A DNA stretch of 64,000 bases, from contig JAJOHG010000101.1 in the NCBI GenBank assembly GCA_021029095.1, positions 33,096-97,095 on the forward strand. The letters run 5' to 3'. This DNA is from Phellopilus nigrolimitatus (taxonomy: Eukaryota > Basidiomycota > Agaricomycetes > Hymenochaetales > Hymenochaetaceae). This document shows, in pieces, positions 6,083-35,690 of the stretch. Under the pieces are notes generated by a model, which was not told the origin of the DNA, searched no databases, and saw only the letters and a list, made by a program, of their open reading frames with translations. The translations under genes were made by a program, and so were the position numbers. Position 1 is the stretch's first letter; each line of letters begins with the position of its first letter.

Positions 6083-9000
6083 ATGGACGATTCCAGAGGA
6101 CGTGGTCGAGGTCGAGGTGAACGCGGTCAGCGTGGTCGGGGCGTGTCACCTGGCCAGCGAGGTGGCTCACCTATGTATCGTGGAGGTCGTGGAGAGTCTC
6201 CTTCCGGATCGAGCGGACGCGGATCTCCAGCCGGCTTTCGCGGCGGCGGCGGCGGAGGAGGTCGAGGTCGAGGCGGACCTGTCCAGATATTCTCTCCGAA
6301 TGCGCCAGCGCAACCCGACGCGCGGCTATCGGACAAGGAGCAAAACGCGCTCATTGCTGGCTTCAAGTCACTGTCGACGTCTGTCCCTGATCGTATTGTG
6401 CGTCCGGGCTTTGGGAAGCGCGGTGCCGCAATCACCCTTCGTGCGAACTTCTTCGCGCTCAAGTATCCGAAAAACGTTGTTCTCTACGATTACGCCATCG
6501 AGATCAAACCCACCGTGAAAACGGAAGAGAAGCGTCTTCGCAAACGCTTATTCGAGCTGTTGGAGTCCACGGAGGAGGTAGCGCCATATCTTCATGAGAT
6601 CGGTCACGACAGGGCGCAGAGGCTGATTTCGAAGAGGCCGCTTCCGGCAAATTTCTCTGCGACAGTCCCGTTCTACGAGGCCGGCGAAACGGGGCCTCGT
6701 CCCGGGGGGAAGGTCTACACAATCAAGGTACTCGAGCCGAAGGAACTCAAGTCGGCTGACTTGGACCGGTAAGCCGATCTCCTATCCATAACATAAGTGG
6801 AGCTGACCAATCTTTTCAAGACACTTACAGGGCGCTGATGTGAATTACGACCCACTGCCAATTATTTCTGCGTTTAATCTAATCGCGACCGCGCCCGCCT
6901 CTCGCGATGGCATACTTGTCGGTAAAAATCGCTATTTCTTCCCGCCCTCTGCTCTGGGCGAGTCTCCGCTCGTTCTGAGTGCGGGCCTTGAAGCTTGGAA
7001 AGGCTTCTTCGCCAGCGTGCGACCGGTTTACAAAAACCTGATGGTGAACGTCAACGTCTGCATGAGCGCGTTCTACATCCCGAATGCGCGCCTCAGTGAT
7101 GCAATGATCAAATATCAGCAGATGTCGTACGGGGCGAGCAACCCGCAGAGGTTCTATAAACGCGTGCGGGTCACGACAAAGCACTTAGGATTTCGCAAGA
7201 AGAGCGGCATCAAGGGTTTCGGAAGAGACACGGCAAGGAAGACTACTTTCCAGTGCGACGAACTGGGCGGGAAAGTCAGCGTGGAGCAGTACTTCCAGCG
7301 GAGTAAGTTCATTCTCATATGGCTGACTATATACTAAAAGCAATTACTCTGTAGAGTACAGTATTCGCCTCCAACACGCGGACGACTTGCCTGTCATTAA
7401 TCTTGGGAACAAGACCAAGGACATATTTGTCCCCGCGGAGCTCTGCGAGATCGAGCCGGGCCAATCGTACGGGGGTACGCTCTCCGAACGCGAGACGGCG
7501 GAAATGATTACTTACGCGTGCAACCCTCCATTCGTCAACGCTCAGTCAATCACTGGCCAGGGCCTGGGCATACTCGGGCTGAGGCAGCGCGCGTCGCCGA
7601 TGCAAGGTTTCGGCATCGAGGTCTCCGCCGACATGACGGTCGTCCCCGCCCGTGTCCTTATCCCTCCAAAAGTAGTCTACTCGTCCGGTTCACCAAATGT
7701 CGCTAACGGATCATGGAATATTCTCAATGTGCGCTTCCACCGGCCCGCGCAACTTACTCGCTCTGCCATTCTTGTTCTCGCGGATGGCGGACGCGATGAC
7801 TTTAGAGATAACTCGGACCCAGCTCTGCGTAGCATCGTGACAGGATTCCTGGCGAAATGTCGTGCGAGCGGAATGCAGGTTGATGCCGCTGTTCCGCCAC
7901 TACTTTTCCTGCGGCTCCCGAAACCACAGCAACGCGACCCGCTGCGCTCCGCGGCGATTGTTGAAATCGAGAAGGAACTTAAATCGCTCCCTGGACGCCC
8001 GACGATCGTCCTCGTTTTCATGTCGGGTCGTGACCCAAACATATATCCGGGACTGAAGAAACTCTGCGACTCTAAGCTTGGAATTGCGACCGTATGCATG
8101 TTGATGCCAAAAGTCAGGAGGGAAAAAGGTCAAGATCAGTACTTTTCAAACATCGCGTTGAAGGTCAACACAAAGCTTGGCGGCGTAAACCACCAGCTTG
8201 ACGCAAATTCCATGCGTTGGCTTAAGAACTCGATGATCGTCGGGATGGATGTGACGCACCCTGGCTTAGGATGTGTTAAGGGGACGCCATCGATCGCCGC
8301 TGTCGTGGCAAGCTGCGATACAGAGTTCATGTTGTACCCTGCGAGCATGAGGCTTCAAGAATACAGGAAAGAGGTGAGTTTCGAATCTCTGTTGTTGTTT
8401 TGCTCGCTGAAGATCCCATTACCAGATGATCACGGACGTCAAGGCCATGATGATCGAGCGCATTAATGAATACTTGAAACGCATGAAATCGCTCCCAGAG
8501 CGCGTCGTCGTTTTCCGCGATGGCGTCTCCGAAGGCCAGTTCGACCAGGTACTCATTCATGAGCTCCCGGAAATACGAGCCGCCCTCCGCTCTTTCAAGG
8601 GCAAGACACCCAAGCTAACGATTGCCATCTGCGGGAAGCGTCACCACACACGCTTTTACCCGACGAAACCCGAGCAGGCGGACAAGACGTCTAACACGAA
8701 GGCTGGAACGCTCGTCGACCAAGGCGTTACCGCGGTTTACGACTTCGATTTCTACTTACAGGCGCATGCGGGCTTGCAAGGCACCGTACGTCCGACGCAC
8801 TACACCGTGATCTTTGACGAGAGCCGTTTTCCCGCGGACGAAATCCAGCAGGGTGCAAACGATGTCAGCTACTTGTGGGCGCGAGCGACGAAGAGCGTGA
8901 GCCTGATCCCACCGGCGTATTGGGCGGACACCGCATGCGAACGCGGACGACTCTACTTGCATGGGATCCTGCCTCCGCTTCCAGACAGTAGGGAAAGCAA

Positions 9001-9091
9001 AATGACTGAAGATCAGATCATGCGCAGGGCGAGAGAGTTGTGGGGCGAAGGCGTTCATGAAAACCTTAGAGGTTCGATGTTTTACTCCTAA
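6083..9091 (+). CDS. Argonaute, full length, slicer tetrad intact (AGO copy 1)
   Basis: Exons 6083-6768, 6821-7302, 7355-8373 and 8426-9091 give 950 residues with all phases consistent. ATG 6083 is chosen because the paralogue at 20478 starts at the same place; an in-frame ATG at 5990 lies before the TATA-like box. Residues 1-70 form an RGG/Gly-rich tail. The Argonaute N domain, linker, PAZ (about 290-400), MID (about 530-640) and PIWI (about 650-940) follow. The catalytic tetrad is visible: D688 (VGMDVTHPG), E729 (QEYRKE, last codon of exon 3), D761 (VFRDGVSEGQ) and H854 (PTHYTVI). The MID pocket keeps Y, K and K positions (IYPGLKK, KLGG). Argonautes bind small RNAs and direct cleavage or silencing of matching RNA. 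The gene is tail-to-tail with a family X gene. From exon 2 onward it is copied in inverse at 50123-52398. Confidence 0.93.
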
Positions 9092-13461: not shown

Positions 13462-15190
13462 TGGCGAAACTACATGTACATGTGCGCGGGGCGGGCGATG
13501 AGGAGAGAGATGTAAGCGATGGGCTCGGCAGTCGGGACGACGCCACCCGCTTTCTTTATTACGTAACATTCATTAAATAAAACTTTTTCGTATGTAATGT
13601 TTTCCTTTGAAAAACCGCTGGATATGACTCTGACAGCAGCAACTCAAGATGTGCTCTGATCAAATGGCGCTCTACTACCGTCACGTACGTGTATTTTACT
13701 TTGCACCAGCCCGACATACACGACGTATATCAATTATGAAGCGGTCAACAGCTAGTCCGGCACGCCAACGGACGCGCCATATTCCGGAGAGCGAGCGCGC
13801 GGATTGTCGTCCGATCGTGATCCGAGACGGACCTGGAAAGTGCTTGATCGTCTGAGAAACAGAAGAAAGAAGAGATGGAGATGACCGAACCGCTGGACTT
13901 TCTCGGCACTCTTTCGCGCTGCACCTCCGGCGCCAGCTTTAGTCTTGACTCGCCAACCTCTCGATTTGTTCTTTTCTAGTTCAAGCAGGACCACCCTCGA
14001 AGCACACATGCATGTGTCGTCGCTGAGATGAAATATACGTACAAGGCTGAATACCCTATACCGTTATCTCCTCCTCCCAGTCGACGGCTGGAGATATACG
14101 TAGCACTCGCTTCTATGCCACATTTGGAACTCTTTGGTTCGAAAGACAATCAAGCCGCAGCTTCGTTTCCAGCCTCCGCTCTCGTGCCACACTTTGAGTT
14201 CCCAATTTTCGATTTCGTATCTTAAACTCGCTCTGAAAATAAAGATCGCACTTGTGGTCAGAAGGGCACCGAAATTCCCGGCGCATTTGATTATCGCCTA
14301 GAACCGCTTAGAACGCCAGGGTACGAAGTCGATGACGCTGTGCGCTCATAACCCAGCGCTCCGAGTCGGTGCCTTCGCAAACTCTGCTCGTGGGCACTGC
14401 GTCGACGAGAAGCTCTGGCGAGTTTCCAACAATATGGACAGAACCTAAAGGTATTCCTCTGAAAGGGATTTTCATTCTCACTGATACTTCTACGCGTCGG
14501 ATTATTTGATGCGCATCCGGCACGGCGAGTTTTCCTGCTCTCTTACATGACCCTAACCTCTTCTTACCCTATGCATATGCTACTTGCAATATCGTCAACC
14601 TTACCATGGTAGGACGACGCTTCTTGAAGCTTTAAAGTTCCAACATGTGTTGGTGGTATCAGCTAGAAGAGACGGTTCGACTTGTAAGTCCGGTACTTCT
14701 GTTTCTTCGAGTCACTGCTAGGGAAATGCAGAAGTTTTGCAGAACATCATGTTCTTTTAGTTTTATCAGCATCAATAACGCGTATTTCGCAATTCCTATG
14801 CAACAATGTCTGGATTCATCATTTGGATTTCCATATCATTTCCCATTGTTGAAGATGTGCAAGACGTGCCATCAATGTTATGAGATGCTTCTTTTCAGAT
14901 TTAGATGCTGCGCAGGTGACTCCCGAAGCATCTCGGGCGCATCACGATGTCTTCGCGACAGCCTCGAAAACTGTTATAGCCGACGCTTGATATTGCAGAC
15001 TTTGATCGACTGGTACAACGTATCCCCTGAGTCTTCAGGCAGTAAATTTGCTACTGCATCGTATCGACCTGCCTTATCTTACCGGCTCATCACTATAAAA
15101 CGTCAACAAGGACGTCAGGCTAGTCCAGCCTGCCCCCACAAGCCGACCTTCCTAAGCTTTGTCGACGGCTTGACGTGCGGGCACTTCAAG
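13462..15190. other. Upstream region of DUF6533 copy A
   Basis: No supported gene. From about 14130 the sequence resembles stretches upstream of the other DUF6533 copies (AATCAAGCCGCAG and following), so this is part of the tandem repeat unit. A TATAAAA box lies at 15094. Confidence 0.5.
15094..15100 (+). promoter_or_regulatory. TATA box of DUF6533 copy A
   Basis: TATAAAA lies 97 bp before the ATG. Equivalent boxes stand at 25352 (B), 32515 (C), 37913 (D) and 43501 (E, TATAAAG), each 81-98 bp before its ATG and preceded by a shared block (CGGCTC or CAGCTC). Confidence 0.7.
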
Positions 15191-16832
15191 ATGCATTCAA
15201 CACGATCTGACGTCGAGCTTGTCGATCCAAGCCTAGTTCCGCTTATCACTTCGGAGATACATACTTGGACGTACGCCGTAGTGTCCGTGTTGACTATCTT
15301 GGTCTATGACACCAGTAAGTCTGACGTTTTGGCCAGATACGAATTCCGCTGACAAATTGACCGCCCAGTTATCACATTGGACAAGGAGGTACGCAAAGCT
15401 TGGCAGTAGCACCCTACGTCTAGACTGATCGTCGTAACGGTACCTCTAAGATCAGATACTTCTGGGTACGTCAATTTCGTAATATCAACACCAGGAATAG
15501 TATGCTTACTTATGCGGCGTAAAGAGCGCTCCCTACAGAATTGTCAGCTTGATTTACTTTGCGGTAAAGAGCATCTCACAGCTTATTCTAAAGAAGTAAG
15601 CTAATCAACAACTCCACTGAATTGTCGTAGAATCGCTATGTTGGAATCATTGGAGCCATTTCCGGTTTACTCGGTAAGCTGTACACAAACCTTACGTGAA
15701 AATGCATTTTAGACAAGAACGCTCACTGGCATTGCCTTTTACAGTTCAGTCTTTTCATGCAAATGAAACGTTGTAAGTAATCCCTGATTAAAGTACTACG
15801 TCTCGCTTTAACTAATTTTAACTAACTCTAAATCTCACTCGTAGGTGTAAGCATTCAGATGCTATATTTGGTCCCTACTGACGATATCGAAAAGGTCTCG
15901 GTGCTGTTTGGATTGAGAACCTTACAAGTGAGTTCTTTAATATTGCATAAATCAATATTTTGCTCATTCCGAGGAAGATTGGATGACTACGTTGTTGATG
16001 AACTGTAATAACACCGCCCTCCTCACAATAGACAAAGTATTCATCGAGTTCTAATTGTTTCGTAGACATCCTTTTGATGAGGGTCCTAGCGCTTTATTTT
16101 CAAGGTGAGCAATCCTGATATTGCGGAATACTTCTTATGTTTATATTATGTAGACAAGAGATTAGCTGTATACCTAAGGACTATATTTAGCCTCGGGGCA
16201 TCGGTGGGGATAGGATTTCTGATCTTTGGCAACATATACGCAGAGAGTAAGCAGAACTTGTCGATGTTGATTGCATAGCTCACTAAATAAATGTTACAGT
16301 TTCCATAGAGAGTCTCGCAGAAGGCGTAACAGTATGTGCTGAAAATAGAAGCCCTCCAAGATTTTGGCGTGCAGTATCTTGGTGAGTATTGACATTTCCG
16401 GTCAAAATCTATTACTTATCTGGAACAGGGCTGCGCCATTGCTGTATGGAATTATCTTAATGGTCCTAGCGCTACATAAAGCTGCACAGCACTGGAGGGA
16501 GTCGAATGGCTTCGGTCATTCCAGCCTTGTTAAGGTGCTCATCCAAGATCAGGCCATCTATTTCGTTTTGTATGTTTTTCTTCATGCATGACCAGTGTCG
16601 ACAAGCTGACTAGCCTGACAGGGTCGTATTTTTCAGTGTTATGAAAGTTGTAGCAGGTCATTTGCGCATCCCCAATTTGCTTCTGGCTAATCTCCTGGCG
16701 GTTTTGGGAGGCCCCAGCATTCTCTCTGTCCTTGGGAGTCACCTGTTGGTTAATATGAAGGAAGCTGGAGAGAGGGGAGCCAATGGGGGGCCCATCGGAA
16801 TGGGTACCGTGAGCAGCATGGGATTTTCCTGA
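15191..16832 (+). CDS. DUF6533-type multi-pass membrane protein, intact copy A
   Basis: Thirteen exons give 966 nt, 321 residues, with every phase consistent: 15191-15314, 15369-15388, 15451-15465, 15501-15563, 15631-15673, 15745-15772, 15852-15927, 15974-16004, 16066-16104, 16154-16246, 16300-16381, 16429-16569, 16622-16832. Two are microexons of 20 and 15 nt. The N-terminus matches DUF6533: TILVYDTIITLDKEIRYFW, then NRYVGIIGAISG. About seven hydrophobic segments follow, with YILLMRVLALY and a final LLLANLLAVLG...GSHLLVNMKEAGE typical of the family's last helix and tail. These are basidiomycete-specific, probably plasma-membrane proteins of unknown function. It is the only undamaged one of five copies in the window. 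Confidence 0.82.
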
Positions 16833-17109
16833 TTTTGCGAAGGGAAATCCAAGGTGACTGCATCTGCTTTGACCTTCCCAGGCTGCTGCGCGGGACTGAC
16901 TGATCATTTAGCAGTCGTATAAGACATGTATACTTCTGCACACCCATCCGATCTTTTATGTACATGTACTCTTGCCCTTACTTCTTGTGCCTATTCTAAC
17001 TGTCGGGTTCTCGCTGGGCGAAGAAATACGAGTTCTGTTCAGTTTCAGCACAACTATCGATTGCATGCATATTCTCGTACAGCTCAAAATGAGATAAGAT
17101 AGTACAGTG

Positions 17110-17661: not shown

Positions 17662-20477
17662 CGGTCTTCTTGAGGACTACCCACAATGTGCATAACCGAC
17701 TTCTTTGGCAATGCAACCTGCTAATGAATGAAGCCACGCTGGATACCTAACAGCGCGCACACTGGATGAAGCCAGATTATGGGCGGAATATTTTCGCACA
17801 GCGCCTTAATGGTGCTGCCTCCCGTCGTCCGGTGGTCGACACGAGGCGCCCATCTCGTCTGCTGCAGCAACAGCGCAGATCGCATCGGAAGCAAACTCGT
17901 TCAGCTCCGAGATCGAAGGACGTTAAGAGAGACGCACGCTATTCGTTAACAAGACCCAGCATTCCCGCCGCGCGCTTCCAAGCAAACCGAGAAGGACCCT
18001 CGGCCGTCCTGTCTCTTACTGTCTTGCTCTCTCAATCCGTTCTATCGCCTGGCGCACGGTACGGTACCACTTCTGCTCGCATCCGCGCCCTCAGCCAGAT
18101 ATCTGCGCACTCCTCCCTCTGCGAAGCCGCGAGCCCCAAGGTCAGAAATGGACGAAGGGAGAGAGAATCGGAGGCGCACCGTTGTAGCCATACGCGCACA
18201 GAGTCCGGAAACAGCGCGCTAGCGGCTAGAGTCCGTTATCGTTTCGCAGGTGTAAAAGGTGGAGATTTGAGCTTGCTCCTTCCTGCGTCTGCTTGCGCAT
18301 GATATTTAGAAAGTGAAACTTTTTGCAGGGACGAGAAGCGAAAGTATTCTGTCGTCGAGGAATGATGCATGATGTTTTACTGGTGATTGTGTATGTTGAC
18401 GTACCGGAGAACCAGGTAGCAAATGCGAGATCGAGAAACATGTGCGCAAGAAACGCACAAATATGCACAGTCGCGCCCGTCTTCCATCTTTATTCTTCCA
18501 TCTTCGCATCTCTAGGACCCCCGCGTCGTGCTTTCCCCCGCGTCTGACGACGTCGAGCACGAGAGAGCCATGGGCGCAACCGAGGCAGACGGTGCCGGGC
18601 CGCCGGCACCGCCGGCGACTTGAAGTTGAAGCTTGAAGTTGAAGGCCGGCTACTAACGCCGCTCGTCGTCTGGCCTGAACGCTGTGCGCGCAAAGACCTA
18701 TAGCTAACGAAGCGAGCAAGCGCCTCTGCTTTCTGTAATATTGTTTGTTCCCATACATCTCCAGCGACATGCGCCGGTAGCGAAAAACGACACGACGGGC
18801 TCCAGTTCGTCCAACTCGATCGCGGCCGCAAACGAGACATCGCGTGCCCGATGGCTCTTCTCCAACATCGGACAGCTGCAGTGCCGAACGATTATAAGAG
18901 CAGTTTCATTTGTTCGTTCTCCAACTACATTCTCGCGTGGCTTCTGGGTTGAACGCAGTTCTCTCGCTCTCTCTTGTTTCGCCCCTTCAGGAAATGACGT
19001 GCTAAGAATACATAGCTGGTTTCACGCTGTCTGGATCCATCACCCTGCAACTTGTTGAATGAATGCTGGAGAAAGAGACTGTCATCGGCATGACAGCCTT
19101 GAAGAAGACAAAAATTGGGCCGCGTGCCGACTGAAACTGTACGACTAGTGAGTGGATTGTTGTCAATACTGCATGGAATTTCGTATGTGCAAATAAAAAC
19201 ATGAATGCCTGTATTTAGATTCCAAATGCTCTCCCAATAGTTACGCTTTTCTCCTTGCGAAGAAGCGACAGACAATATTGGAAGACAAGGACAGTCACTA
19301 GAAGACGAACCTGGACTTTGAACCTGAACTGCTGCGAGCCCTACTATCGCGATTGCTAACTTGGAGTGAATCGAAGGAGCGCTATTTTCCGCGAACTAAA
19401 CCCGCAACAGGCCGCGAGAGCGCGAGCGGAACAGCGTCACAATGGCTGCGGTACTGCCCAAAGTTAATTCCGGACTTGAGCTGCGCGGATGAGAAGCATT
19501 GAGAACCACTGGAAGTACGTACAGGTGGCTGCGAGAGATGAATGGATAGAATGCGAGTCTAGAGTACAAAAGCAATGCGCAACTAGTACCGCAGAGACTG
19601 TGCACTGTGTCTTCGAGACAACGGCTTCACAGTCTTGATTAGCTCCATCATTTGAGTTCAACAGTAGAAGAAGACTTGAACTTCAAACGATGAAACCCGG
19701 AATGCTTGACTCAATGAGAGTAACCACCCTTGTTTTTCGCATTTATAGCAATGCCACTTTTTGATAAATTGACCGTACAGTACGTACATAGAAGAGAGCC
19801 GGACAGCGAAGAACATCGGACAGCGAAGAACATCTTTAGGGCCGGTATTCTCGTGACAGCAGAATCACGTGCTCTCGCATATCCTGCGCTTCATTTTCAA
19901 CCTCAAGTCTCGACAGCTCACGACTTCTGAAACTCTCGTCGGTTTGCGACCGTGCGCGACGGTCTCCGTATACCGCACTAACTGCGATGTAATCGTGTGG
20001 TCAAAAGGCTGGTGGCATAGATTCAATATACGCAGTTCTTGCTGTTGGCGCAGGCATATCTTGCAGCAATGGTGAACAACACGCTGCGTTCACAACACCC
20101 GACTTGTTCTGCAGCGAGTGACAACCGTAATACACTCGTGCATCGATAGGCGCAGGTAGCTGCGAGTTAAGAGTGAGTTCTCAATCTGATGTGATTAACG
20201 AAGAGTAGGGTCTTAACCGCATTTTTAGTGCTCGCACTGACTCGGAGTGAGCTCTTCTTCGCAGCATCCGAAGCACGCCGCGTCTTCTTCTGTATTTGCG
20301 TTCGACTGCGAATGGAGCTCCTAAAAATGTCTATAGCTGCGATCAAAATCTTCATGAGACGGCAAGTGCTGGTTTTCGGTACTTAAGGCGACGCGTACGT
20401 CTCATGTTGCCTCATCCTATCCGTCCTATCCACTTCAGACACTGCTCAATCTCACTCATATACAACAAAGGACTATC
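17662..20477. other. Intergenic region up to AGO copy 2
   Basis: No supported gene. 17760-18360 resembles stretches at about 30300-30750, 41390-41800 and 46920-47280 (the GACCCAGCAT block and the CGCGCTCGCGGCGCGGAAGA-like block), part of the tandem unit. From about 19830 to the ATG it resembles the upstream region of AGO copy 1. The middle part shows only scattered short frames. Confidence 0.45.
20380..20388 (+). promoter_or_regulatory. TATA-like box of AGO copy 2
   Basis: TACTTAAGG lies 98 bp before the ATG and aligns with the box before AGO copy 1; CGTACGTCTC follows in both. Confidence 0.45.
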
Positions 20478-23390
20478 ATGGACAACTCCAGAGGACACGG
20501 TGTAGGACGAGGTGATCGCGGCCAGCGCGGCAGAGGCATGTCTCCCAGCCATCGAGGGGGCCCTCCTATGGCTCGTGGGACACACATCGACTCGTCTTCG
20601 AGGTCCGCTGGAGCTGTACAGGTGTATGCTCCCAACTCTCCCGCGCAGTCCGACGCGCGGCTCACGGACAGAGAGCAGGATGCGCTTGTCTCCCGCTTCC
20701 AGGCACTGTCGGCCGCAGACCCCGACCGCGTCGTGCGTCCGGGATTTGGGAAGCGCGGTGCAGCGATCGCAGTTCGCGCGAACTTCTTCGCGCTCAAGTA
20801 TCCGAAGGATGTCGTCTTGTATGACTACCCAGTCGTGATCACTCCCGAAGTGGACTCTAAGCCCCTTCGTAAGCGCTTATTCGAGCTTTTGGAATCCACG
20901 CAGGAGGTCGTGCCCTACCTTCACGAGATCGCGCACGACTGGTCTCAGAGGCTGATTTCGAGAAGCCGTCTTCCTGTAGACTTTTTGGCGACGGTCTCGG
21001 AAGGACCTGAGAGGGTTTACACTATCAGTGTTCTCGAGCCGAAGGTACTGAGGTCTACAGACTTGGATCGGTAAGTATTGATATTCTCAATTAGACATGC
21101 GACTGACCCTATTCGAAAACAAAATGTTTCTAGTTACCTGCAAGGCGAGAATGCAAGCTATAATCCTCTCCCGCTCATCTCGGCCTTCAACCTCATCACG
21201 ACCGCACACGCCTCGCACACGGGCGTGTCCGATAGGAAAGGTTACATGTTTCCTCCTTCTGCTTTGGGAGAATCTCCGCTCGCTCTCAGTGCGGGTCTCG
21301 AGGCCTGGAAGGGGTTCTTCGCGACCGTGCGTCCTGCATGCGGGAAACTGATGGTCAACGTAAACGTCTGCATGGGCGCGTTCTACGTCCCGAATGCGCG
21401 CCTCAGTGATGCGATGGTCAAATATCAGCAGACGTCGTACGGGGCAAGCAACCCTCAGCGCTTCTATAGGCGCGTGAAGGTCACCACGAAGCACCTAGGC
21501 TACCGCAAGCAGGTCGGGATTAAAGCTTTCGGAACTCAGTCGGCAAAGAAGACGGTCTTCCAGTGCGACGAACTGGGCGGGATGGTCAGTGTCGAACAGT
21601 ATTTTCAACGAAGTAAGCACAATGGCATGTGTAACTACTTAGATCTTAGACACTCACCACAATATACAGAATTCAACATTCGCCTCCAACACGCCGACGA
21701 TTTGCCTGTCATCAATGTTGGAAGTAGGACGAAGGACGTTTTCGTTCCCGCAGAGCTTTGCGAGATTGAGCCGGGCCAGACTTTCGTGGGCGTGCTTTCT
21801 GGGAGCGAGGCTGCGGAGATGACGAAGTACTCGACCAACCCTCCATATGTCGATGCTAAGGCGATCACAGAGCAGGGCCTAGAAGTACTGGGTTTGCGTC
21901 AGGGTGCGCCGCCCATACAGGGCTTCGGGATCGAATTGTCCAGAGACATGGCCGTCGTCCCCGCTCGTCTGCTGAGCCCGCCCAAAGTCATTTACTCGTC
22001 CGGCTCTCTCACCGTCGCCAACGGGTCCTGGAACACGCGCGACGTCCGCTTCCACAGACCTGCGCAGCTCACTCGCGCCGCCATTCTCGTCCTCGCAGAT
22101 GGCGGGCGCGATGACTTCAGGGATTCCTCGGACCCGGTACTGCGCGGCGTCGTGACGCGGTTCCTGGCGACGTGTCGGACGGGCGGGATGCAGGTCGACG
22201 ACGCGCTCCCGCCGCTTCTTTTCGTGCGGCTCCCGCTAGCGAATCCACGCGACCCACTGCGTGCTGCTGCGATCGACGCGATCGAGAACGAGATTAAGAC
22301 GCTCCCCGGTCGCCCGAACATCATGCTCGTTTTCGTATCCAACGGTGGGATCTACCCGGGTCTGAAGAAGCTATGCGACTGCAAGCTTGGAATTGCGACC
22401 GTCTGCATGTTGATGCCGAAAGTCAAGAAGGAAACGGGTCAAGACCAGTATTTCTCAAACATCGCGCTAAAGGTCAACGTGAAGCTTGGTGGCGTCAATC
22501 ACCAGCTCGATGCAAGCTCTATGCGCTGGTTGAAGAGCACAATGCTCGTCGGAATGCGTGTGACGCACCCTGGTGTTGGGACACCGTCTATCGCTGCTGT
22601 CGTGGCAAGCTGCGATGAAGAGTTCATGCACTATCCGGCGAGTCTTCGCCTCCAGGAACACGGGAAAAAGGCGAGTGGTGACCTCTGAATTTCCTATCAT
22701 TATAAACTGACAGCTTCTTCCGAACAGATGATTACCGATGTCAAGGAAATGATGATCGAGCGTCTCAACGAATATACAAAACGGATGAAGACTCTTCCCG
22801 AGCGCGTCGTCGTGTTTCGCGCCGGCGTCTCTGATGGCCAGTTCAAGCACGTACTCACCCACGAGCTCCCGGCGATCAAGGCCGCGTTTCTCTCTTTCAA
22901 GGGCAAGAGCCCTAAGCTTACTATTGCGGTCTGTGGGAAGCGGCACCGCACGCGCTTCTACCCAACGAGGTCCGAGCAGGCCGACAAGTCGTCGAACACG
23001 AAGGCCGGGATGCTCGTCGATCAAGGCGTCACTGCCGTCTATGACTTTGACTTCTACTTGCAGGCGCACGCGGGGCAGCAGGGCACCGTGCGCGCGACGC
23101 ATTACACCGTGATATTCGATGGAAACCGTCTTTCCGCGGACGAGATCCAACAGGGTGCACACGACGCGAGCTACCTATGGGCGCCCGCGACGAAGAGTGT
23201 TCGGCTGGTCCCGCCGGCGTACGCGGCGGAACGGGCGTGCCAGCGCGCGCGGCTCTACCTGCTTGGGATCATCCCTCCTCCGATCAGCAAGGAGAGTACC
23301 ATTGATCATGCGCTGATCATGCGCAGGGCAAAAGAGCTATGGGGCACGGGCGTCCATGAGAATCTTCGTGGCTCTATGTTCTACTTGTGA
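20478..23390 (+). CDS. Argonaute paralogue with substituted slicer tetrad (AGO copy 2)
   Basis: Exons 20478-21070, 21134-21612, 21670-22670 and 22728-23390 give 911 residues with consistent phases. The intron positions equal those of AGO copy 1. The domain order is the same, with a shorter RGG tail. Three of four catalytic residues differ: R654 (VGMRVTHPG) for Asp, K691 (last codon of exon 3, HGKK) for Glu, A723 (VFRAGVSDGQ) for Asp; H816 is kept. By the known Argonaute mechanism this protein should not cut RNA. The MID-domain pocket motifs (IYPGLKK, NVKLGGVN) are kept, so guide binding may remain. No stop or frameshift is present, so the loss looks tolerated or selected rather than simple decay. 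Intron 3 starts with GC (AAG|GCGAGT) where copy 1 has GTGAGT. Confidence 0.92.
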
Positions 23391-25449
23391 TTTGCGACAA
23401 AACGGGAGAGATAATAAGAATTTGAATGAGTATGTGAATACGTGTTCCTGTGTATATTGAAATCTGATAGCGTGTTACATGTGACCGTCTGACACTGTGT
23501 ACAATTAGTTTTAGTGAATTAGAAATTGAAGATTGCTGTCTGTTTCAAGACGGTCGTATAGAAAGGGAACTAATTATGTAATATTAGTATCTCTTACATC
23601 AGCTCAAAGTACGTAACTCCAGAACATTGGTCCAGACTCCAGAAGCCTCTTGCTTAGTCGAGACAACGTGCGTCTCCCCACAGTGCATCGTCTTCATCTA
23701 GCGCTGCGCGGCGTGCGCATACATCCCGGGATGGCCTCGGTTTTTTAAGGTCATCTTCGTCTGGAGCGCTGCGTTTGGGCGGGGCAGGTGAGCGTACATA
23801 TGGCACTGATGACAGCGGACGGTCCAAGCTCTGACACCGGTACACCGACCTCATTCCCCTGCGTCCATCTACGACTGTATCAGGAGGGCGCCCTGCTACA
23901 GCGGCGCGGGGCATTGTTTTGTTCGGGGATGCAGACGGCTCTGGAGGCAGGTAATGGCGGATGTGCTAGCGGAAACACTATCCAAGTTGGCGAGGCATGC
24001 GCGATCTTGCGGGCAAGGATTGCCAGCGAGAACAGGCCGTGGCAGTGATGAAAGCAGAGCGTACGCGCTGGTGCGAGCCATCGCTCTCTCTTCCGTGCTG
24101 CTTTTCCTTTAGGCCGTCGACGCCAATTTCAGTCTCGTACTACTCATTGGTATCTCGTTGTTTCTTCTTAATTCAAATAGGACTACTCTCTCAAGTACCT
24201 CCACGTGTGGCACGTTTGAACTCTTCGACGTGAAATCCCATCAAGCTGTAGATTCGCCTCTCGCCTCCGCGTTCGTAGACTTAGCCAATCGACGCGCCCA
24301 GACATTGAGCTCTCAGTTCTCAACGCTCGGATTACGAAACCGCTCTGAAAGAAAACTCGACATTCTCATATTTCTCTTATGTTGCAGTTGCCGCCTGAAG
24401 CGCACTGAAAAGCTCTGTGTCCTTTTGGATCGTCCACGCTCGGCGATTTCGTGGATGATACTGAAGGCGCGTCACGTCGAGCACCTCTGGCGAGCGCGGA
24501 ACAGACGCGGGTCTTACGCCGAAGGGTACTTCTGCTCACGCAATGATATATCAACTACGCTTCAGTCACACACGCGCTCGACGGTAACTTATCCTGCTCT
24601 TTGACCTAGCACCAAGCTCTTCACTTAGTGCGCCGTCCTCGTGCTGCTGTGTTGTCGCCGACCTCGCCATGGATATCTGGCAGGATGACTCTTTTTGAAC
24701 CTTAAACATCCGTAGATACGCTAGCAAATAGGAGGCCCTGTAAGTCCGGTCTTTCTGTTTCCTCGAGTCATGGCTAAGGAAATGCGCCTGTCCGGAAAAG
24801 AAAAGTGGACTGCGATGCACAGACACGAACGACGCGTTTCTTCAACTGTATTAGTGTCAATTACGTTTCAGTAGGCAGAAGATCCAGGCGTGTTTATTTG
24901 ATGATGCGATCTGTCAATGTTTTCATATTCGGTAATCTCTCATCCTGAACCTGTTTAGAACCTCCTTACATTTGTTTCGAATCATACAGCTCAAAGAGTA
25001 CGTATATATATATGTACTTCGGAATTCCTGCGCTCGATTTGATCCTCTGAATTCCGGCGGTATTCGTACCGTTTCTCCCGTTGAAAAGGCTTGTTGACTG
25101 CTCTTTATAACGCAAACTAGATGGGGAAGCTATACGCAACAGTCAGATTTACAGATCCCGTTCGCTAATGCGTGGTCATCGGGCGTTCTTGAGCCAGTTT
25201 TTAGTATTGCCGATGTCGAATGCGTGTTGACCTCGAAAGCAGGCCTCTCCTCACAGACTTGTATCAGCCGAAATAGCGTATTGCCTGAACCTTCGAGCAG
25301 CAAATGTGCCATTGACTCGTATCGGTCTGTCTTATCGTACCGGCTCGCCGTTATAAAATGCCTACAAGGATGTTCGGCTAGCCCAGCTTACGCCCCCGAA
25401 TAGCCCATTCTAAGCTTCATTGAAACTTGACGACTGCAGACGCCTCACT
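23391..25449. other. Upstream region of DUF6533 copy B
   Basis: No firm gene. The minus-strand frame ending at 23654 has an acidic/basic protein-like tail (DEDDLKKPRPSRD, DEDDALWGDARCLD) and could be a gene fragment, but no start or domain is visible. From about 24240 the sequence is the upstream part of the tandem unit, seen again near 31440, 36930 and 42520. The TATA box of copy B is at 25352-25358. Confidence 0.45.
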
Positions 25450-27938
25450 ATGCATTCAACGCAATCTGACATTGAATCTATTGATCCAAGTCCCGTGCCA
25501 CTTCTCGTCTCAGGGAGTATGTACGGCCTAGTGGCATTGTTAACTCTCTTGGTCTACGACACCAGTAAGTTTTGCATCTCAATGGGTGTGCCAGGTAGCT
25601 GCGATGTCATTAATTGTTCAGTTATCACAATGGACAAGGAGGTAAGCGAAACTTGACATTTATATCTCGATGTCTAGACTAATCGCAGTATCTATTAGAT
25701 AAAATACTTCTGGGTATGTCTTTTTCACAACAATAACATGAGGAATAGTGTATCTACTCATGTGGCATGAAGAGCTCTCCTTGCAAATTTGTCAGCTTGA
25801 TTTACTTTGTGGTAAGTAAGATTGCACAACTTATTATAAAGGAAATAGCTGATCATCTCCTCTAATGAATGGTTATAGAGTCGATATCTTGGAGTACTTG
25901 GAGCCATTTCTGGTATAGTAGGTAAGCTGTACTCAATTCTTTAATAGGAGTGCATTAAAAACAAGATTGTCCACTAATACTGTTTAGGGCTCCGCACCGT
26001 ACCGTATACGGTTACGACCGTAAACACTACCTCTGTATACGGTTACAGGCCGTATGAATACAGGCCGTATTAATGAGTATTAAGGTGCTTTACGGTACGG
26101 TACAGAGAACTTACGGCCGTATACGGCAGCATACGACAGTACGGCTGGAGTTGTATGAATATAGTCTAAAATCTACTGTGTGTCGCCAACCCGAACGATG
26201 CACGACACAATGATGCGACACAACAATAGACAGGCAAAACTAATCAGGAAAATCATGATAGATTATGTATCTACGCTGTAACATATGTTCCTGATGGCCC
26301 GAATATATTTAAAAGCAAAAGCCAGATGTTGAAAGTGTGCAATTGAGCTTGACATCTTTTCGCCGACGGTATTCAGTTCTTTTCGCAGCCACTGCTTTCA
26401 CGTACCAGTTAGCCAAAATCCTTTGTGACACATATTTTCGTGACTCACCAATTTTGGTTGTCCTTCAACAATTGGTGCAGAACACAACACCAAAGGCTCG
26501 TACGGGTGCGCCTCGATACAATAAGAGGCGGGACATGGCAGATAAAAGTTGCAGAAGCAGCAAAGAAGAAGCACTCACTGGCTCACACGTCGACTGGCCT
26601 TGCTTCATTTGATTTTACTACAAATGGTAATTTTAAACCATGTAAACCTATATATGTAATATGTAAATACCGTAAGTCGTATTTACGTCCGTATACGGCC
26701 GTAACATACGGTTATATTACGGATACGGATCGTACATTACGGCGCCGTACTTTCAAACTCTGAGGAGCATACGATACGGGTACGGGCCCGTATACGGTAC
26801 GGCCGTAAACCGTAATTACGGTTACGGTGCGGAGCCCTAATACTGTTTTTATACTCAGTTGTTACTCTTCAAGCAAATAAAACACTGCAAGTAATCTCTT
26901 ATCATTGCATTATAACTCATTGAAGCTAAATCTAAATGTGGACTCATTTATAGGTGTAAGTTTCCAGATACTCTTTTTTTTTTCTTTCTTTACTAATGAT
27001 AGTGAAAAGGCCTTGGTTTTATTTGGCCTCAATATCTGTCCTGTGGGTTATCAATTGTTCCATAAAACAAAATTCTACTCATTCAAGCAAAGATTGGACG
27101 GCTGTCCTTTTAATTGACTGTAGTGACATCTCCTTACTACATATAGTATGCAAAATATTCATCTGCCACTAATCATTTATGCAGATATTCTTCTGATGTG
27201 GGTTTTGGCTCTCTACCACCAGGGTAAGGCACTCCTGGTACCACCAATGCACAACTGATATTTGAATCCGGCAGACGCAAAACTGACTGCATGTTTGAGG
27301 ATTCTATTCGGCCTGGAGGCAGCTTTTGGGCTAGGTGTTCTAATATACATCATCATATATTCAAAGAGTAAGCAAAAATATTTATTGTAGAGTGTACAAT
27401 TCACTAAACAATTGTTCCAGTTTCTGTACAGAGACTTACAGAAGTGTAGCAGTATGTTTTCTTCATAGAAGGCCAAAAGTCTGGGGAGCATTAATATGGT
27501 TAGTACTGATGTCCTTGAGTGAATATTTGTATTGATTTAAAACAGGGCTATGCAATCATTCTAATGGTTCTAGCTCTCCACAAGGCTGCACAACACTGGA
27601 GGGAGTCAGCTGGTTTCGGTCAGTTTAGCCTTCTTAAGGTGCTCATCCAAGATCAAGCCATCTACTTTATTTTGTATGCTTCTTGATGTATAGCCAGTGG
27701 TATATGAGCTGACTAGTCTGACAGGGTCATATTCTGCAGTGTTATGGGGATAATTTCATATCAGTTTAACATCCAATATTCTTTTCCTGAACTTCTCCTA
27801 GCCGTTTTGGGAACTCCCAGCATTCTCTGTGTTATTGGGAGTCACCTGTTGATCCATCTGAAGGAAACTGGAGAGAAACGAGGTGGTGGAGGGACCAGCT
27901 ACAGGATGAGGACCATGAGCAGTATGAGGTTCACCTGA
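25450..27938 (+). pseudogene. DUF6533-type gene copy B, frameshifted and carrying a MITE
   Basis: The exon order of copy A can be followed from ATG 25450 to TGA 27936-27938. Exons 1-5 and the last exons are open. Damage: one base is missing in the exon matching copy A exon 11, giving TAG at 27447-27449, and the acceptor before the DWTAVLLID exon is out of phase. An 855 bp MITE sits in the intron after exon 5. The exon 6 donor is GCAAGT. It could be a recent pseudogene or could use altered splicing; the frameshift favours the first. Confidence 0.7.
25985..26839. mobile_element. Non-autonomous hAT-type element (MITE), 855 bp
   Basis: The ends are inverted repeats starting TAGGGCTCCGCACCGTA; the right end reads TACGGTGCGGAGCCCTA. 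The element is flanked by the 8 bp direct repeat ATACTGTT (25977-25984 and 26840-26847). An 8 bp duplication and TAGGG termini are typical of the hAT superfamily. No transposase frame is present. The interior is filled with variants of CCGTATACGG and TACGGCCGTA on both strands, probably subterminal binding sites. The other DUF6533 copies lack it at this intron, so it arrived after the tandem duplication. Confidence 0.88.
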
Positions 27939-28300
27939 ACTTGCAAAGAAAATTCCAAGGTGATTGCATCTCTTTCCTGCCGGAGTCTGAGTGACCATTC
28001 ACAAGTCGTGTAGAACATCCAAATACTCCTGCACTCCTGTCCGGTCTTTTATTTACTCTTACCGCTTATTCTTTAAAATGTCCTACATTGTCGAATTTTC
28101 ACTGGACAAGGAAATACCAGTTTGTTTGCGCGTACACGAGCTCACTGTTCTTGTTCTGCTCAGATTTGTCACAACCATCGACTGCATGCAGATGTTCGCG
28201 CAGCTTAGAGAAATAAGATGATACAGCAGCAGTGCGCAATGATCGCTCAATCGCCTTGCGCTCTATCGTATGTTTGAGCAGCGAGTTCTTCACAACCCGC

Positions 28301-29651: not shown

Positions 29652-32605
29652 GGAGCGCATGCTGCGTACGAAGCTATGCGAGGCGGGCACGTATGGAGTC
29701 GGCAGTCGGTGAAGTGGTAACATCGTAGATTGTCACTGTAATTCTGTTTAGCAGTATTTAACCCCGCTTTGTTCGCGTTGCTGCAATAAATTCTCCTTCA
29801 ACTAGCTATGATATTGTCCTGAAGCATCTGCGAGTCCAGAGGGCGATTCGAATAAAGAGCGATTCTGAAAGTGTGCGTCGAGTTTGGATGTATTAGACAA
29901 AGAGTTTGTCGGCCTGTCGACTCTTCACAATATCTTACGAGGGGGTAAGTGAAAGTATGTTGCATATGCGCCTCTCGATAGTCGAAGTGGATATAAGACT
30001 GCGAAGAGGGCGGATTTGGAGTCGGCTTCAGAAGACGTGAGCACGCTGGGCCGAAAACAGAGTATCGGCGGTGCGGTTATTTGGCGGTCCTATGTCTTTA
30101 CTTTGCCGCTGGTCCAACGCGGCAAGGTCGAACCACCGTCGCACAGAGGTATTGCTCCCTGCCGTCAAACGGCTCGATATGACACATCCATCTCGTCTGT
30201 GCTTTTCCGAACCTCCGGTGTGCGGAAGACCACCGCACCTTCGGCGACTGCAGCAACAGCATAAGTCAGATCGAGAGAGAAAACGCTCAGTAGCTGCCCT
30301 CCGAGTTCGGGTGACATGAAGAAGAACGTACGCTACTCGTGGACACGACCCAGCATACCCGCCGCGCGTTCTGGGCCTTCGTGGGAGGCATGCCACGACG
30401 CCGACGCGCTGCCCCGCCGTATCAGGAAGAAGAGATTGCCCTCCTCTCCTCCTTCTCCTGCTGATCCGCTCCTCGGCCCGCTCCTCTGTTTCACGCGCAG
30501 CGCAGTGCCCCTTTCTGCCCAAGCATCCGGGCCTTGTGCATCGGTGCACATGTGCGCAGAATCGCACGCCTCGGGGTCAAAATGGGACGAAGACAAATAT
30601 AATCGCAGGCGGGCCATTAAAACCATGAGTCTGTGGATGGCGCGCTCGCGGCGCGGGAGATATCGCTTCGCGGGCGAAACATGGACTTGTAGTGCGGGTA
30701 GGTTTGACGTGTCCGCGTGCCTTGCTGCGTCTCCTCGCGCGGAAGATCTTTAGCACGCGAAGGTCGTGTATGGACAGGACGCAACCGCATTTTGTAGTCA
30801 AATAATGATGTATGGATTTCGGCACGCTGGAGAGCGAGACACCGAGCTCGAGATCGAGGACGCGAAAGAGAACGCAGAAGGTGACGGTGACTTGAAAGTG
30901 GAAGCCGGCTACTAAAACCGTGACGAGCTCGTCGTTCTGCGAGCCGATGCAGGCACGAAGGCCTAGCGCTTCTTACATCTGTGTCGCGCTCGTCGCTCTT
31001 GGCTATGTCTGTTCAACGCCCCGAAACACCTTCTGTTTGTCGATGGAGCCGATCCAGAGCCCCCGGGAGCGCGCGGGGGGCCGTCGGGCTCTGTCAGCGT
31101 GCGCCTCCTCCTGCACCGGCGTCCGTCTGCGCCTGTCTGCAGTTGCCAGCGTCGTCGCAAAAGGTGCTCAAGAGGAAGAAATGTTGCCGACATGGAATGC
31201 CCGATCGCACAGGATGATTTTTATTTTTCTACGTATTTTGGCAGCCTCGGCTCCGTTGCGCGCGGGAGGAAAACAGACGGCCGTGGTACGTGTGGCAGTA
31301 CAGGCGAACTGCTTCCGTTGCTGCCAACCTTAGCCTCGACAGGCTACTGTCTTGTTGTTGTTTCTCAATTTGAACATGACTACTCTCTCAAACAGCTCTA
31401 CCTGTTCCGCATTTTGAACTCTCCTACATGAAAGCCCGTCAAGTCGTAGATTCACTTCACGTATCCGTGCTCGCAGAATCGACGTGACCAGAGATTATTA
31501 ACAAGCTCTCAATTATCAACGCTCAGATTGCGAAACCGCTTTGAAAGAAAACTCGTCCTTTTCATATTTGTCTTAAGTTGCATTTGCCGCCTGAAGCGCA
31601 CTGAAAGACTCCGTGTCCTTAGGATCGCCCATGGTTGACGAATTCGCGAACAATATAATAGGTGCACATCGTCGAGCAGCTCTGGCAAGCTTCCGGACAG
31701 GCGGAACGGACGCGGGTCTTACGCCACACAATGATATACCAATCATGCTTCAGTCACACCTCATCATCGGATACGCGCTCGACGGTACCTTCTCTTGCTC
31801 TCTTTCCTAGCGCCAAACTCTTCTCACTTCATGCGCCTTCCTCGTGCTATCGCGTTATCGTTGACCTCGCCATGGATATCTGGCAGGACGACATTCCTTG
31901 AAGCTTGAAACATCCGTATATACGTTAGCGGCATCAACTAGGAGGCCTTGTAAGTCTGGTCTCCTGTTTCCTCGAGTCACAGCTAATAAAATGCGCCTGT
32001 CTGAAAGCCAAAATTGGACTGCGATGCACAGACGCGAACATCGCTGTTCTTCGGTTGTATCAACATCAAATATGCCTCATCACGACAGTTTACGTATAAG
32101 CTAGTACAATAGGACCATTTTCTTTCACATCCGGTAATCTCTCCTCTTGCATTTGTATGAAACCACCTTACATTTGTCTTGAATCACGCAACTGGGGAAG
32201 CATACTCTTGTATGCCGCAATGCCCGATTTGATCGTCTGAATTCTGGCGGTATTCGTACACCTTCTCCCACTGAAAAAGCACGTTAACTGCTCTTTATAG
32301 CACAAGCTAAATCATGAAGCTATGCGCAGCAATCTGATTCACAGTTCTCACTCGCTAATGCGTGGACATCAGGAGTTCTCGAGCCTATTTTTTAGGATCA
32401 CCGACGTCGAACGTCGCAGACTTTGATCAGCCGAAACAATGTATTTCCTGAATCTTCGAGCAGAAAATGTGCTATTTACTCGTATCGGCCTGCCTTACTT
32501 TACCGGCTCGCCGCTATAAAATGTCTACGAGGATAGGCCAACTTACACCCCCGAACAAACCTTTCTGAGCTTTATTGGAGACTTGACGTCTGCAGACGCC
32601 TCACC
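29652..32605. other. Region upstream of DUF6533 copy C
   Basis: No supported gene. 30010-30900 carries degraded tandem-unit sequence seen again near 36020-36300, 41380-41800 and 46500-47280; minus-strand frames there are broken. 31440-32600 is the upstream part of the DUF6533 unit, with TATAAAA at 32515-32521. Confidence 0.45.
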
Positions 32606-34224
32606 ATGCATTCAACACGCTCTGACATCGGGTCTCTTGATCCAAACCTAGTGCCACTTCTCGTCTCAAAGACAGATACCACTATGTATGGCCAAGTGGC
32701 AATTTTAACTTTCTTGGTCTACGACACCAGTAAGTTTGCATCTCGATGGGTGCGCCAGGTACCTGAGATGACATTGATCGTGCAGTTATCACTATGGACA
32801 AGGAGGTAAGCGAAGTTTGACATTTATATCTCGATGTCTAGACTAATCATAGTATCTATAAGATAAAATACTTTTGGGTACACTACTTTTCTAACATGTA
32901 CGCCATGCATAGCATATTTACTTATGTGGCACGAAGAGCTCTCCTTGTAAATTTGTCAGCTTGATCTACTTTGCGGTAAGTAAGATTTTACAGCAGATTA
33001 TAAGTTAGATAGCTGATTAACTCTTGTAATGAATGGTTGTAGAATCGCTATGTTGGAATTCTCGGAGCCGTTTCTGGTATAATAGGTAAGCCGTACTCAT
33101 ATCTTTAAAAGGAGTGCATTTAAAACAATAATGTCCACTAACACTGTCTTTCATACTCAGTCGTTGCTCTTCCAGCAAATGAGCCACTGCAAGTAATCTC
33201 TGATTATTGCTTGAAACTAACTCTAAAATGCGGACTCGTTTATAGGTGTAAGTGTCTAGATACTATATTGTTTCTTTACTGATATTAGTGAAAAGGCCTT
33301 GGCTTTAGTTGGATTATAGGTCTATCATGTGAGTTATCAATTATCCCATAAAACAGCATTTTACTCATTCAGGCAAAGATTGGATGACTGGCCTTCTAAT
33401 TGACTGTATAACATCTCCTTGCCTACAATTGACCTGCCACTAATCATTTGTGCAGATATTCTTCTGATGCGGGTCCTGGCACTCTACCACCAGGGTAAGG
33501 CACTCCTGATATCACCAAAACACCGATGATGTTTTAAATCCTGCAGACAAGAAACTGACTGCATGCCTGAGGACTCTATTTGTCCTGGAGGCAGCTTTTG
33601 GGCTGGGTGTTCTGATATACACCATCATACATGAAAAGAGTAAGCAGAACTGATTATTATAGAGTGCACAGCTCATTGAACAGTTGCTCCAGTTTCTGTA
33701 GGGAGACTTGCAGAAGGTGTAACAGTATGTTTACTCAATGGAAGCCCAAAGGTTTCGGGTGCATTAGCTTGGTTAGTACTGACATCCTTGGGTAAAGGTT
33801 TAGACTGATTTAAAGCAGGATTGAGACATTGCTGTATGCCATCATCCTAATGGTTCTAGCTCTCTTCAAGGCTGCACAACACTGGAGGGAGTTAGGTGGT
33901 TTCAGTCAGTTTAGCCTTCTTAAGGTGCTCATCCAAGATCAGGCCATCTACTTTGTTTTGTATGCATCCTTAATGTAAAACCAGTGGTAAATGAGCTGAC
34001 TGTCCGACAGTGTCATACTCTGCAATGTTATGGGGATAGTATCATTTCAGTTTAACACCCAAAAATTGCCTCTGGCTAGTCTCCTGTCTGTTTTGGGTTA
34101 CCCCAGACTTCTCTCTGTCCTTGGGAGTCACCTGCTAGTTCATCTGAAGGAAGCTGGTGAGAGGCAAGCCAATGGAGGAACCAGCTACAGGATGAGGACC
34201 GTGAGCAGTATGCGGTTCTCCTGA
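32606..34224 (+). pseudogene. DUF6533-type gene copy C with stop in exon 7
   Basis: The exon order equals copy A, from ATG 32606 to TGA ending 34224. Exons 1-6 and 9-13 are open. Using the acceptor homologous to copy A, exon 7 meets TAG at 33257-33259 and a second TAG further on. The exon 6 donor is GCAAGT. The TATA box is kept. It is probably a recent pseudogene; different splicing around exon 7 cannot be excluded by eye. Confidence 0.65.
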
Positions 34225-35029
34225 ATTTGAGGAGAGAATTTACAAAGTGAGTGCACCTGTCTTGGCCTTTTTTGGATTCTTCCCGAGACTGATTGTTCAT
34301 TCAGTAGACATGTAGACATCCAGATACTTCCACGCTCTTGTCCGATTTTTCATTTATGCTTGCTTTTTCCGCATATGGGGTATCCAGATACCTTTGCGCT
34401 CTTGTTTAGTCTTTTATCTGTCTTTGCTCTCTCTTCTTGCACATATTCAGTATCTCATAGAATGTAAAATCTTCACTAGGCGAAGAAATACCAAATTATC
34501 TGCCTGTACATGAGTCCACTGCCCATATTTTGCTCAAATTCAGCGGAATTATCGATTGCATTTCATGAAGCTCAAAGTAGGCCAACACGATACAGTAGCC
34601 GCGCGCACCGATCGCGCGGCGGCTTAGTACTTCGTCGCATACTTGAGTAGTGATGTCGATATGGCACAGCTTAGCTTATTAGCGTGGGGGATGGAGAGAA
34701 GAGCAATGGTGAAGGCGGAGAGAGGGCGCTCCAAGTGCGCGCTCTGCCGCTATATTTGCGCCCCCTGCTTACGCGGCCCTGCCTTTCCCCTCTCTCAGAC
34801 CATCGCTCCGCACTCAATTACCGGTCCCGCACCCGCATCCTCCTCCGAATCAGCGGCCACGGGCTCAAGCGCAGCGGCAACCAACGCATCCGCATGTGCG
34901 CGCACCCACGCGCACATGGGAAGCACCCCGGGCAGAGAGCGCGCGTCTATGCGTCTCTCTCTTTCTCCTTCTCCTTCACATCCTCCTTCTCCGCGTCTGT
35001 GTCGGTGGTTGACGAGGGAGATACGAACA
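34225..35029. other. Intergenic, downstream of copy C
   Basis: The 3' flank of copy C, related to the flanks of D (39700-40050) and E (44980-45310). It includes a repeated pyrimidine-rich block with TCTTGC. No gene seen. Confidence 0.4.
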
Positions 35030-35690
35030 AGCGCAGGTCGCCCGCGGTCGTATGGAAGTTGGCTGTTCGTTCGTTCGTCCGGTTGTTTGGGGCAGAGGTC
35101 AGAGGCATGCGGGTACGCGAGCGTTGTGTGCGAACGTACCCATGCCTTTTTTGTCGGTGGTTTGGTTTGAGGATATGAGAATAGGACATGAGGGGGCGGG
35201 TTGTCAGTTCCGGGAGGAGACTGGGCGGAAGAAGAAAAGAGAAAGGAAGGGCGCGGAACGCACTTGCACCAGAGCTCTTCGCTGAGCAGGCACACGGACG
35301 CGAAGGCTGCGGCGTCGACCTCACGGAGGGTGACCTCCTTTACCTCCGCCGCATTCCCTTCGTCTCCGGCGGAGGCGTCCGCATGCTCGTGCAGCGCGTC
35401 GTTGAGCGAGGTGACGAGCACGCGCGCGGTGACGACCTCAGGGGTGACGTGCATGTCCGCGCCTGCCGGGCGTCCGTCAGCACACCCAACACAAACGAAG
35501 CGTAGAAAAGAGAGACGCGGCGCGCACCAAGCCGCCGCGAGAGCGTACGCGCAGGTGTCTGCCGCACTGTACGCGCCGGGAGGCCCGTGGGAGCGGAGGA
35601 GTGGCCAGGCTGCCGCGTAGAGCGTCGGGGTGAGCTGTTTGAGCTTGAAGACGTCGAAGTGCAGGGAGTTCTCGGGGTAAAAGGTCGTAT
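35030..35690 (-). pseudogene. NmrA-like gene fragment 1
   Basis: Read on the minus strand from about 35690: a block LYTTF..EN.L.FDVFKLKQL and then GVYSAADT, a second block ADMHVTPEVVTARVLVTSLN with EVKEVTLREVDAAAF and SEELWCKC, and a third with TTAGDLRLFVSP. The order fits the C-terminal half of NmrA-like NAD(P)-binding proteins (an MENF-like motif, the ADIG-like motif, the LTPEE region, then AEELW). No N-terminal Rossmann part is visible, and intron boundaries are only partly clear. The same fragment recurs at about 40410-41010 and 45415-46110. The family call is moderate. Confidence 0.45.

Follow-up and report, generated by a model that had tools for sequence, protein, structure and literature searches.

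Animals are known to have Argonautes that lack slicer activity, and the WAGO Argonautes of Caenorhabditis elegans are slicer-dead, expanded, and under selection. In the titles and abstract beginnings of the open-licence literature, we recognized no description of a clade of slicer-dead Argonautes from a basidiomycete, which is weak evidence of novelty. An expansion of Argonautes in a fungus is reported for Rhizophagus irregularis, with 40 AGO-like genes (PMC6399891), and a 2014 survey describes the first two residues (aspartates) of the DDH motif as well conserved in fungi (PMC4290597). Altered loading has a precedent in the fungus S. pombe, whose Ago1, when inactive, is reported to associate for the most part with siRNA in double-stranded form (PMC13136243).

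The gene that we describe here, Argonaute copy 2 of the wood-decaying polypore Phellopilus nigrolimitatus (order Hymenochaetales), carries the residues RKAH at the positions of the catalytic tetrad. It shares subfamily and domain order with its neighbor, copy 1, and with three orthologues of copy 1, P0003 from Phellinidium, P0005 from Coniferiporia, and P0004 from Sanghuangporus (copy 2 is 64–67% identical to these three), and the intron positions of copy 1 match its own; all four of these proteins are DEDH, whereas copy 2 is RKAH. As in the WAGOs, predicted loss of slicing is found together with expansion and selection, but copy 2 is probably of unrelated origin; it groups with fungal Argonautes in a tree of Phellopilus copies and ten outside proteins. 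Phellopilus and R. irregularis both show a fungal Argonaute expansion, in different phyla. The closest engineered counterpart is human Argonaute2 (hAgo2) D669A, the equivalent of A723 in copy 2, which is described as a catalytically dead form (PMC11893014); in contrast to that protein, copy 2 is natural, and two more of its catalytic residues have become basic, in addition to H712R.

Argonaute Genes in the Window and the Tetrad of Copy 2

The stretch analyzed here (the window, 64,000 nucleotides) is part of contig C4 of an assembly that totals 56.4 Mb. It holds three Argonaute genes, modeled as follows.

6083–9091, forward strand: AGO copy 1, DEDH, slicer-competent by its tetrad, 950 aa; exons 6083–6768, 6821–7302, 7355–8373, 8426–9091
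20478–23390, forward strand: AGO copy 2, RKAH, 911 aa; exons 20478–21070, 21134–21612, 21670–22670, 22728–23390 (from the spliced open frame, alignment, and domains)
22671–22727, forward strand: third intron of copy 2, donor GC (GCGAGT), with GT in the allele on contig C368
50123–52405, reverse strand: AGO copy 3, DEDH, without exon 1 and the N domain; exons 52405–51919, 51859–50841, 50788–50123

Copy 3 is the public model P0006 (721 aa), which starts at exon 2; a Piwi search found no counterpart of it on C368.

The frame of copy 2 comprises 911 codons and a stop, with zero internal stops, as had been claimed for it, and the protein is identical to copy 1 at 675 of 911 residues. Realignment to copy 1 reproduced exactly the residue numbers of the original prediction, D688/R654, E729/K691, D761/A723, and H854/H816, and all three intron positions said to be common to the two copies are indeed retained. 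In hAgo2 numbering, the substitutions are D597R, E637K, D669A, and H712R. The GC donor of the third intron in the window allele had been overlooked. Contig C368 represents the second haplotype; the order and orientation of copies 1 and 2 there match the window, and the flanks are 97% identical. Its copy 2 allele (L010) is 99.1% identical to that of the window and likewise RKAH with an intact frame, and our model of this allele agrees at every residue with the public protein P0001 (911 aa). In neither haplotype does copy 2 have a slicer tetrad (DEDH or DEDD).

Tetrad Loss among Homologues

A protein search scored 7992 candidates, 207 of which were found at E ≤ 0.001, and the best 120 of these 207 were compared together with two window copies (122 sequences). 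The tetrad is DEDH in 114 of the 122. Six of the eight exceptions are from Phellopilus (copy 2, P0001, P0002, P0011, P0013, and P0097); the others are P0056, where the exception is a gap at the second site, and P0082 from Mycena sp. CBHHK59/15, which reads DEGH. Among the 113 non-Phellopilus Argonautes within the best 120 of 207, the first site is D in 113/113, the second E in 112/112 with one gap, and the third D in 112/113, and a clear loss of the tetrad is found in 1 of these 113. Given such near-invariant sites, the RKAH of copy 2 is far from chance. P0082 has lost the same third aspartate, to Gly, with the first two sites kept; because it is placed on a different and distant branch of the tree, this loss is apparently independent of the one in the Phellopilus clade.

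A Phellopilus Clade with Three Intact Loci

We modeled 19 further Argonaute places, namely copy 3 of the window and 18 stretches chosen among the stronger ones of 73 Piwi matches at exon level. In the protein tree, 14 of the 19 join copy 2 (100% bootstrap), and with ten outside proteins included in that tree, the clade consists of Phellopilus sequences only. Full open frames are present in five of the 15 clade sequences: copy 2 and L010, which are the RKAH alleles, L011 on C27 and L015 on C390, which are both GEGH (dS 0.028), and L017 on C90, which is DEGH. There are accordingly three frame-intact loci, RKAH, GEGH, and DEGH, and the third catalytic residue is gone from all of them. The aligner models of L011, L015, and L017 contained a spurious small intron near the N terminus, and those of L015 and L017 also a spurious frameshift; we counted the three as intact because their frames run through 936 codons each without an internal stop. 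L013 has an open frame that covers residues 464–911 only (dS 0.035 to L017), and the other nine clade sequences carry stops or frameshifts or are fragments.

The third site is A or G in 11 of 14 scorable clade sequences. An apparent RKTH in L021 is an artefact, its first two sites being uncovered, and was excluded from the residue counts. L023, L024, and L025, all broken genes, have D at the third site and N at the first and are placed inside the clade with 76% support. Because these D-bearing sequences sit within the clade, either a single ancestral loss of the third residue would have been reversed there or the residue would have been lost more than once. At the third site, copy 1 has the codon GAT, nine clade members have GGC or GGT, and the two alleles of copy 2 have GCC; the codons are GAT or GAC, GGT or GGC, and CGT at the first site and GAG and AAG at the second. 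On our reading, this pattern fits an order in which the third residue was lost first and the others later.

One genome holds a graded series of frame-intact genes, from an intact tetrad to one, two, and three lost residues, and so what Argonautes do after they cease to cut becomes directly testable with natural variants. The series is also a caution that Argonaute gene counts alone are unsafe for inferring RNAi capacity.

L012 and L016, on C27 and C390, represent a DEDH paralogue that is broken in both haplotypes, in one by two frameshifts and in the other by two different stops, and the GEGH copy is intact on these same contigs. The donor of the third intron varies within the copy 2 clade; it is GC in copy 2, L011, and L015 and GT in L010, L017, and L013.

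Retained and Altered Parts of the Protein

The Pfam domains ArgoN, L1, PAZ, L2, and Piwi are found in this order in copy 2, each above its cut-off, which places the protein in the eukaryotic AGO clade. The structure model of the allele P0001 has an Argonaute fold (pLDDT 79.3, pTM 0.75), with human Ago2 (E 6.1e-66) and Ago1 as the best Foldseek matches. Residues Y529, K533, K566, K570, and R812 of hAgo2, which we take to form the guide 5′-phosphate pocket of MID, are matched at 5/5 positions in copy 2, L010, L011, and L017, and the pocket is thus predicted to be retained in each.

Of 166 near-invariant columns, 147 are retained in copy 2 and 19 altered, compared with five altered in copy 1, 23 in L011, 22 in L017, and 16 in the broken L012. 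When eight slicing-related sites are set against the other 158, the altered fractions are 4/8 and 15/158 in copy 2 (Fisher p 0.0065), 4/8 and 16/158 in L010 (p 0.008), 4/8 and 19/158 in L011 and L015 (p 0.014), 3/8 and 19/158 in L017 (p 0.073), and 0/8 and 5/158 in copy 1. The slicing-related sites are not enriched for change in the broken L012 (1/8 and 15/158) or L016 (1/8 and 16/158). We give this enrichment little weight because the tetrad, which prompted the comparison, is itself among the eight sites; at the four slicing-related sites outside the tetrad, one is altered in copy 2, two in L011, and two in L017.

The Thr-His pair that follows the first catalytic site, which in AtAGO10 is reported to contact the target backbone (PMC10772731), is retained in copy 2, whereas its His is Gln in the GEGH copy and Arg in the DEGH copy. 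On this alignment, the part of the cutting machinery that was lost therefore differs among the three intact dead loci. The dead clade is altered at two sites of the seed region close to the guide, and these changes, R882P and S888R, could affect guide binding.

Upstream of the coding region, three short blocks are common to copy 1, copy 2, and the intact dead copies. They look promoter-like and are not seen in the flanks of the broken L012 and L016, where the gene start is uncertain.

20340–20477, forward strand: 5′ flank of copy 2, with the blocks GTAYTTAAG, CGTACGTCYC, and CCACTTCAGACA (160-base flank alignment)

Selection on Copy 2

Codon models were fitted to 914 columns of nine sequences, in an alignment made from the aligner models with a few codons missing near the N terminus. 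By branch class, ω is 0.098 on slicer branches, 0.147 on the copy 2 stem, 0.175 for the copy 2 alleles, 0.228 on the dead-clade stem, 0.22 for the broken DEDH pair L012/L016, and 0.133 for GEGH/DEGH, a rough value for reasons given below. Fixing ω at 1 costs 53.85 (2ΔlnL) on the copy 2 stem, 16.65 for the copy 2 alleles, 278.83 for GEGH/DEGH, and 123.97 for L012/L016. A dN/dS near 1, which had been named as the mark of a decaying copy, is therefore rejected on the copy 2 stem as well as between its alleles. Purifying selection on the protein has been strong ever since copy 2 diverged from its relatives, which are likewise without the third catalytic aspartate. Dead copies taken together have an ω of 0.139 against 0.098 for slicer copies (2ΔlnL 4.44), so that the dead clade is slightly less constrained.

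Pairwise comparisons gave similar values. The copy 2 alleles differ by 15 synonymous and 8 nonsynonymous changes (ω 0.17), and the copy 1 alleles have an ω of 0.16; copy 1 versus copy 2 gives dS 1.16 and ω 0.14, and copy 2 versus GEGH, like copy 2 versus DEGH, dS 0.64 and ω 0.14. Domain by domain, no part of copy 2 is unconstrained (0.09–0.19 against GEGH, 0.10–0.19 against DEGH). Between L011 (GEGH) and L017 (DEGH), dS amounts to 0.65 in PIWI but to 0.02 in L2; a gene-conversion tract between the two copies is likely, and the branch values of both are therefore rough.

Free neutral drift of copy 2 can be ruled out. With a stem dS of about 0.30, neutrality predicts about 826 changes and about 21 stops, and 0 stops are observed; the stem ω of 0.147 also lies below the branch values of seven broken clade members (0.24–0.51). 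Recent repair of copy 2 by gene conversion from copy 1 was rejected because dS between the two is 0.95–1.36 in all seven segments. A low ω alone is no proof of present use, because L012/L016 reaches 0.22 while broken, and the intact frame in both copy 2 alleles is evidence of use beyond low ω.

How Copy 2 May Act

It is quite probable, in our view, that copy 2 loads guides and pairs with targets without cutting them and has been kept by selection for that activity. A maintained, non-cutting Argonaute was the core of the original prediction; maintenance finds support in ω and the intact frames, and the lack of cutting is what the lost residues would imply. As possible roles, that prediction had offered a decoy, a form for transcriptional silencing, or a regulator of the active sibling. 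We count in favor the loss of the tetrad at near-invariant sites, RKAH in both haplotypes, ω, and the absence of stops, and further the kept MID pocket, the 147 retained columns, the fold model, the common 5′ blocks, and the behavior of hAgo2 D669A. Against it we count the 19 altered columns (5 in copy 1), the slightly weaker constraint, the nine of 15 clade sequences that are broken or fragmentary, the low ω of the broken L012/L016, and R882P and S888R near the guide. With its pocket unchanged, copy 2 would still take up small-RNA guides and pair with targets, and it would hold these targets instead of cutting them. It could then act by recruiting other factors, whether for amplification by RdRP or for silencing at chromatin, as worm secondary Argonautes do, or alternatively by occupying guides and targets.

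Both of these are sub-cases of the maintained non-slicer reading, and the first appears the likelier. A WAGO-like secondary effector, in which the dead copies would bind RdRP-made small RNAs and recruit chromatin or RNA-turnover factors while copy 1 cuts, is a plausible role that falls somewhat short of an even chance. Copy 2 combines lost slicer residues with a maintained protein, as in the WAGO-type way of working. The coexistence of an intact DEDH copy with three slicer-dead loci that are also intact is consistent with this role, as are the retained guide pocket and the RNAi families of the genome (Dicer-dimer, 8 matches; RdRP, 23 exon-level matches).

We regard as rather doubtful that copy 2 is a competitor or brake, which would reduce the slicing done by copy 1 by binding guides or masking targets, perhaps with the siRNA retained as a duplex whose passenger strand cannot be cut. 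The retained guide pocket and target-anchoring Thr-His pair would suit such a protein, the common promoter-like blocks suggest that the two copies are expressed together, and the inactive S. pombe Ago1 offers a parallel for duplex retention (PMC13136243); this role alone, however, leaves three separate intact loci unexplained. Still more tentatively, and with the odds well against it, the Phellopilus genes may constitute an independent fungal class of non-cutting Argonautes whose catalytic site was lost step by step, the intermediates being intact in one genome (DEDH, DEGH, GEGH, RKAH), and the formerly acidic metal site of RKAH, now basic (Arg, Lys), may clamp the target RNA backbone in place of cleaving it.

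That copy 2 is instead in early decay, with slicing lost first and stops yet to come, is very improbable. The broken or fragmentary state of nine of 15 clade sequences, the 19 of 166 altered columns, and the persistence of low ω in the broken L012/L016 pair are what such decay could look like, but the stem ω of 0.147 (2ΔlnL 53.85 against 1), about 21 expected stops with none observed, two intact alleles, and intact GEGH and DEGH relatives (ω 0.133) speak against it. An assembly or gene-model error behind RKAH has next to no probability, despite the near-duplicate contigs retained in the assembly and the unusual GC donor, and we rule it out, barring one error common to both contigs, because the second haplotype has the same residues and intact frame with a GT donor and its public model matches ours exactly.

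Neighboring Genes and Repeats

An array of multi-exon membrane-protein genes lies among the Argonautes of the window, at 14600–16834, 24500–28000, and about 31700–39700.

14600–16834, forward strand: multi-exon membrane-protein gene with a DUF6533 match (Pfam PF20151, E 6.4e-11), exons joined by eye
24500–28000, forward strand: region 3′ of copy 2 with another member of the DUF6533-match neighbor family, interrupted by the repeat at 25985–26839

When the genome was searched for DUF6533 one exon at a time, these neighbors in the window gave no match, whereas the joined model did. DNA matches of two neighbors of the window Argonautes adjoin copy-2-type Argonautes on C368, C390 (three places), C27, and C90, and the matches of 24500–28000 elsewhere overlap those of 14000–17000. 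The broken DEDH pair and copy 3 have no neighbor match closer than about 5 kb. From these positions, we infer a shared local duplication of the neighbors and the copy-2-type Argonautes.

The repeat at 25985–26839 (about 855 bases) is present in C4, absent from the matching place in C368, and found full-length at six other places with 98–100% identity; it is a young, heterozygous insertion. Elsewhere in the genome, at C625:78475–81040, a Piwi fragment is found about 2 kb away from an RdRP fragment.
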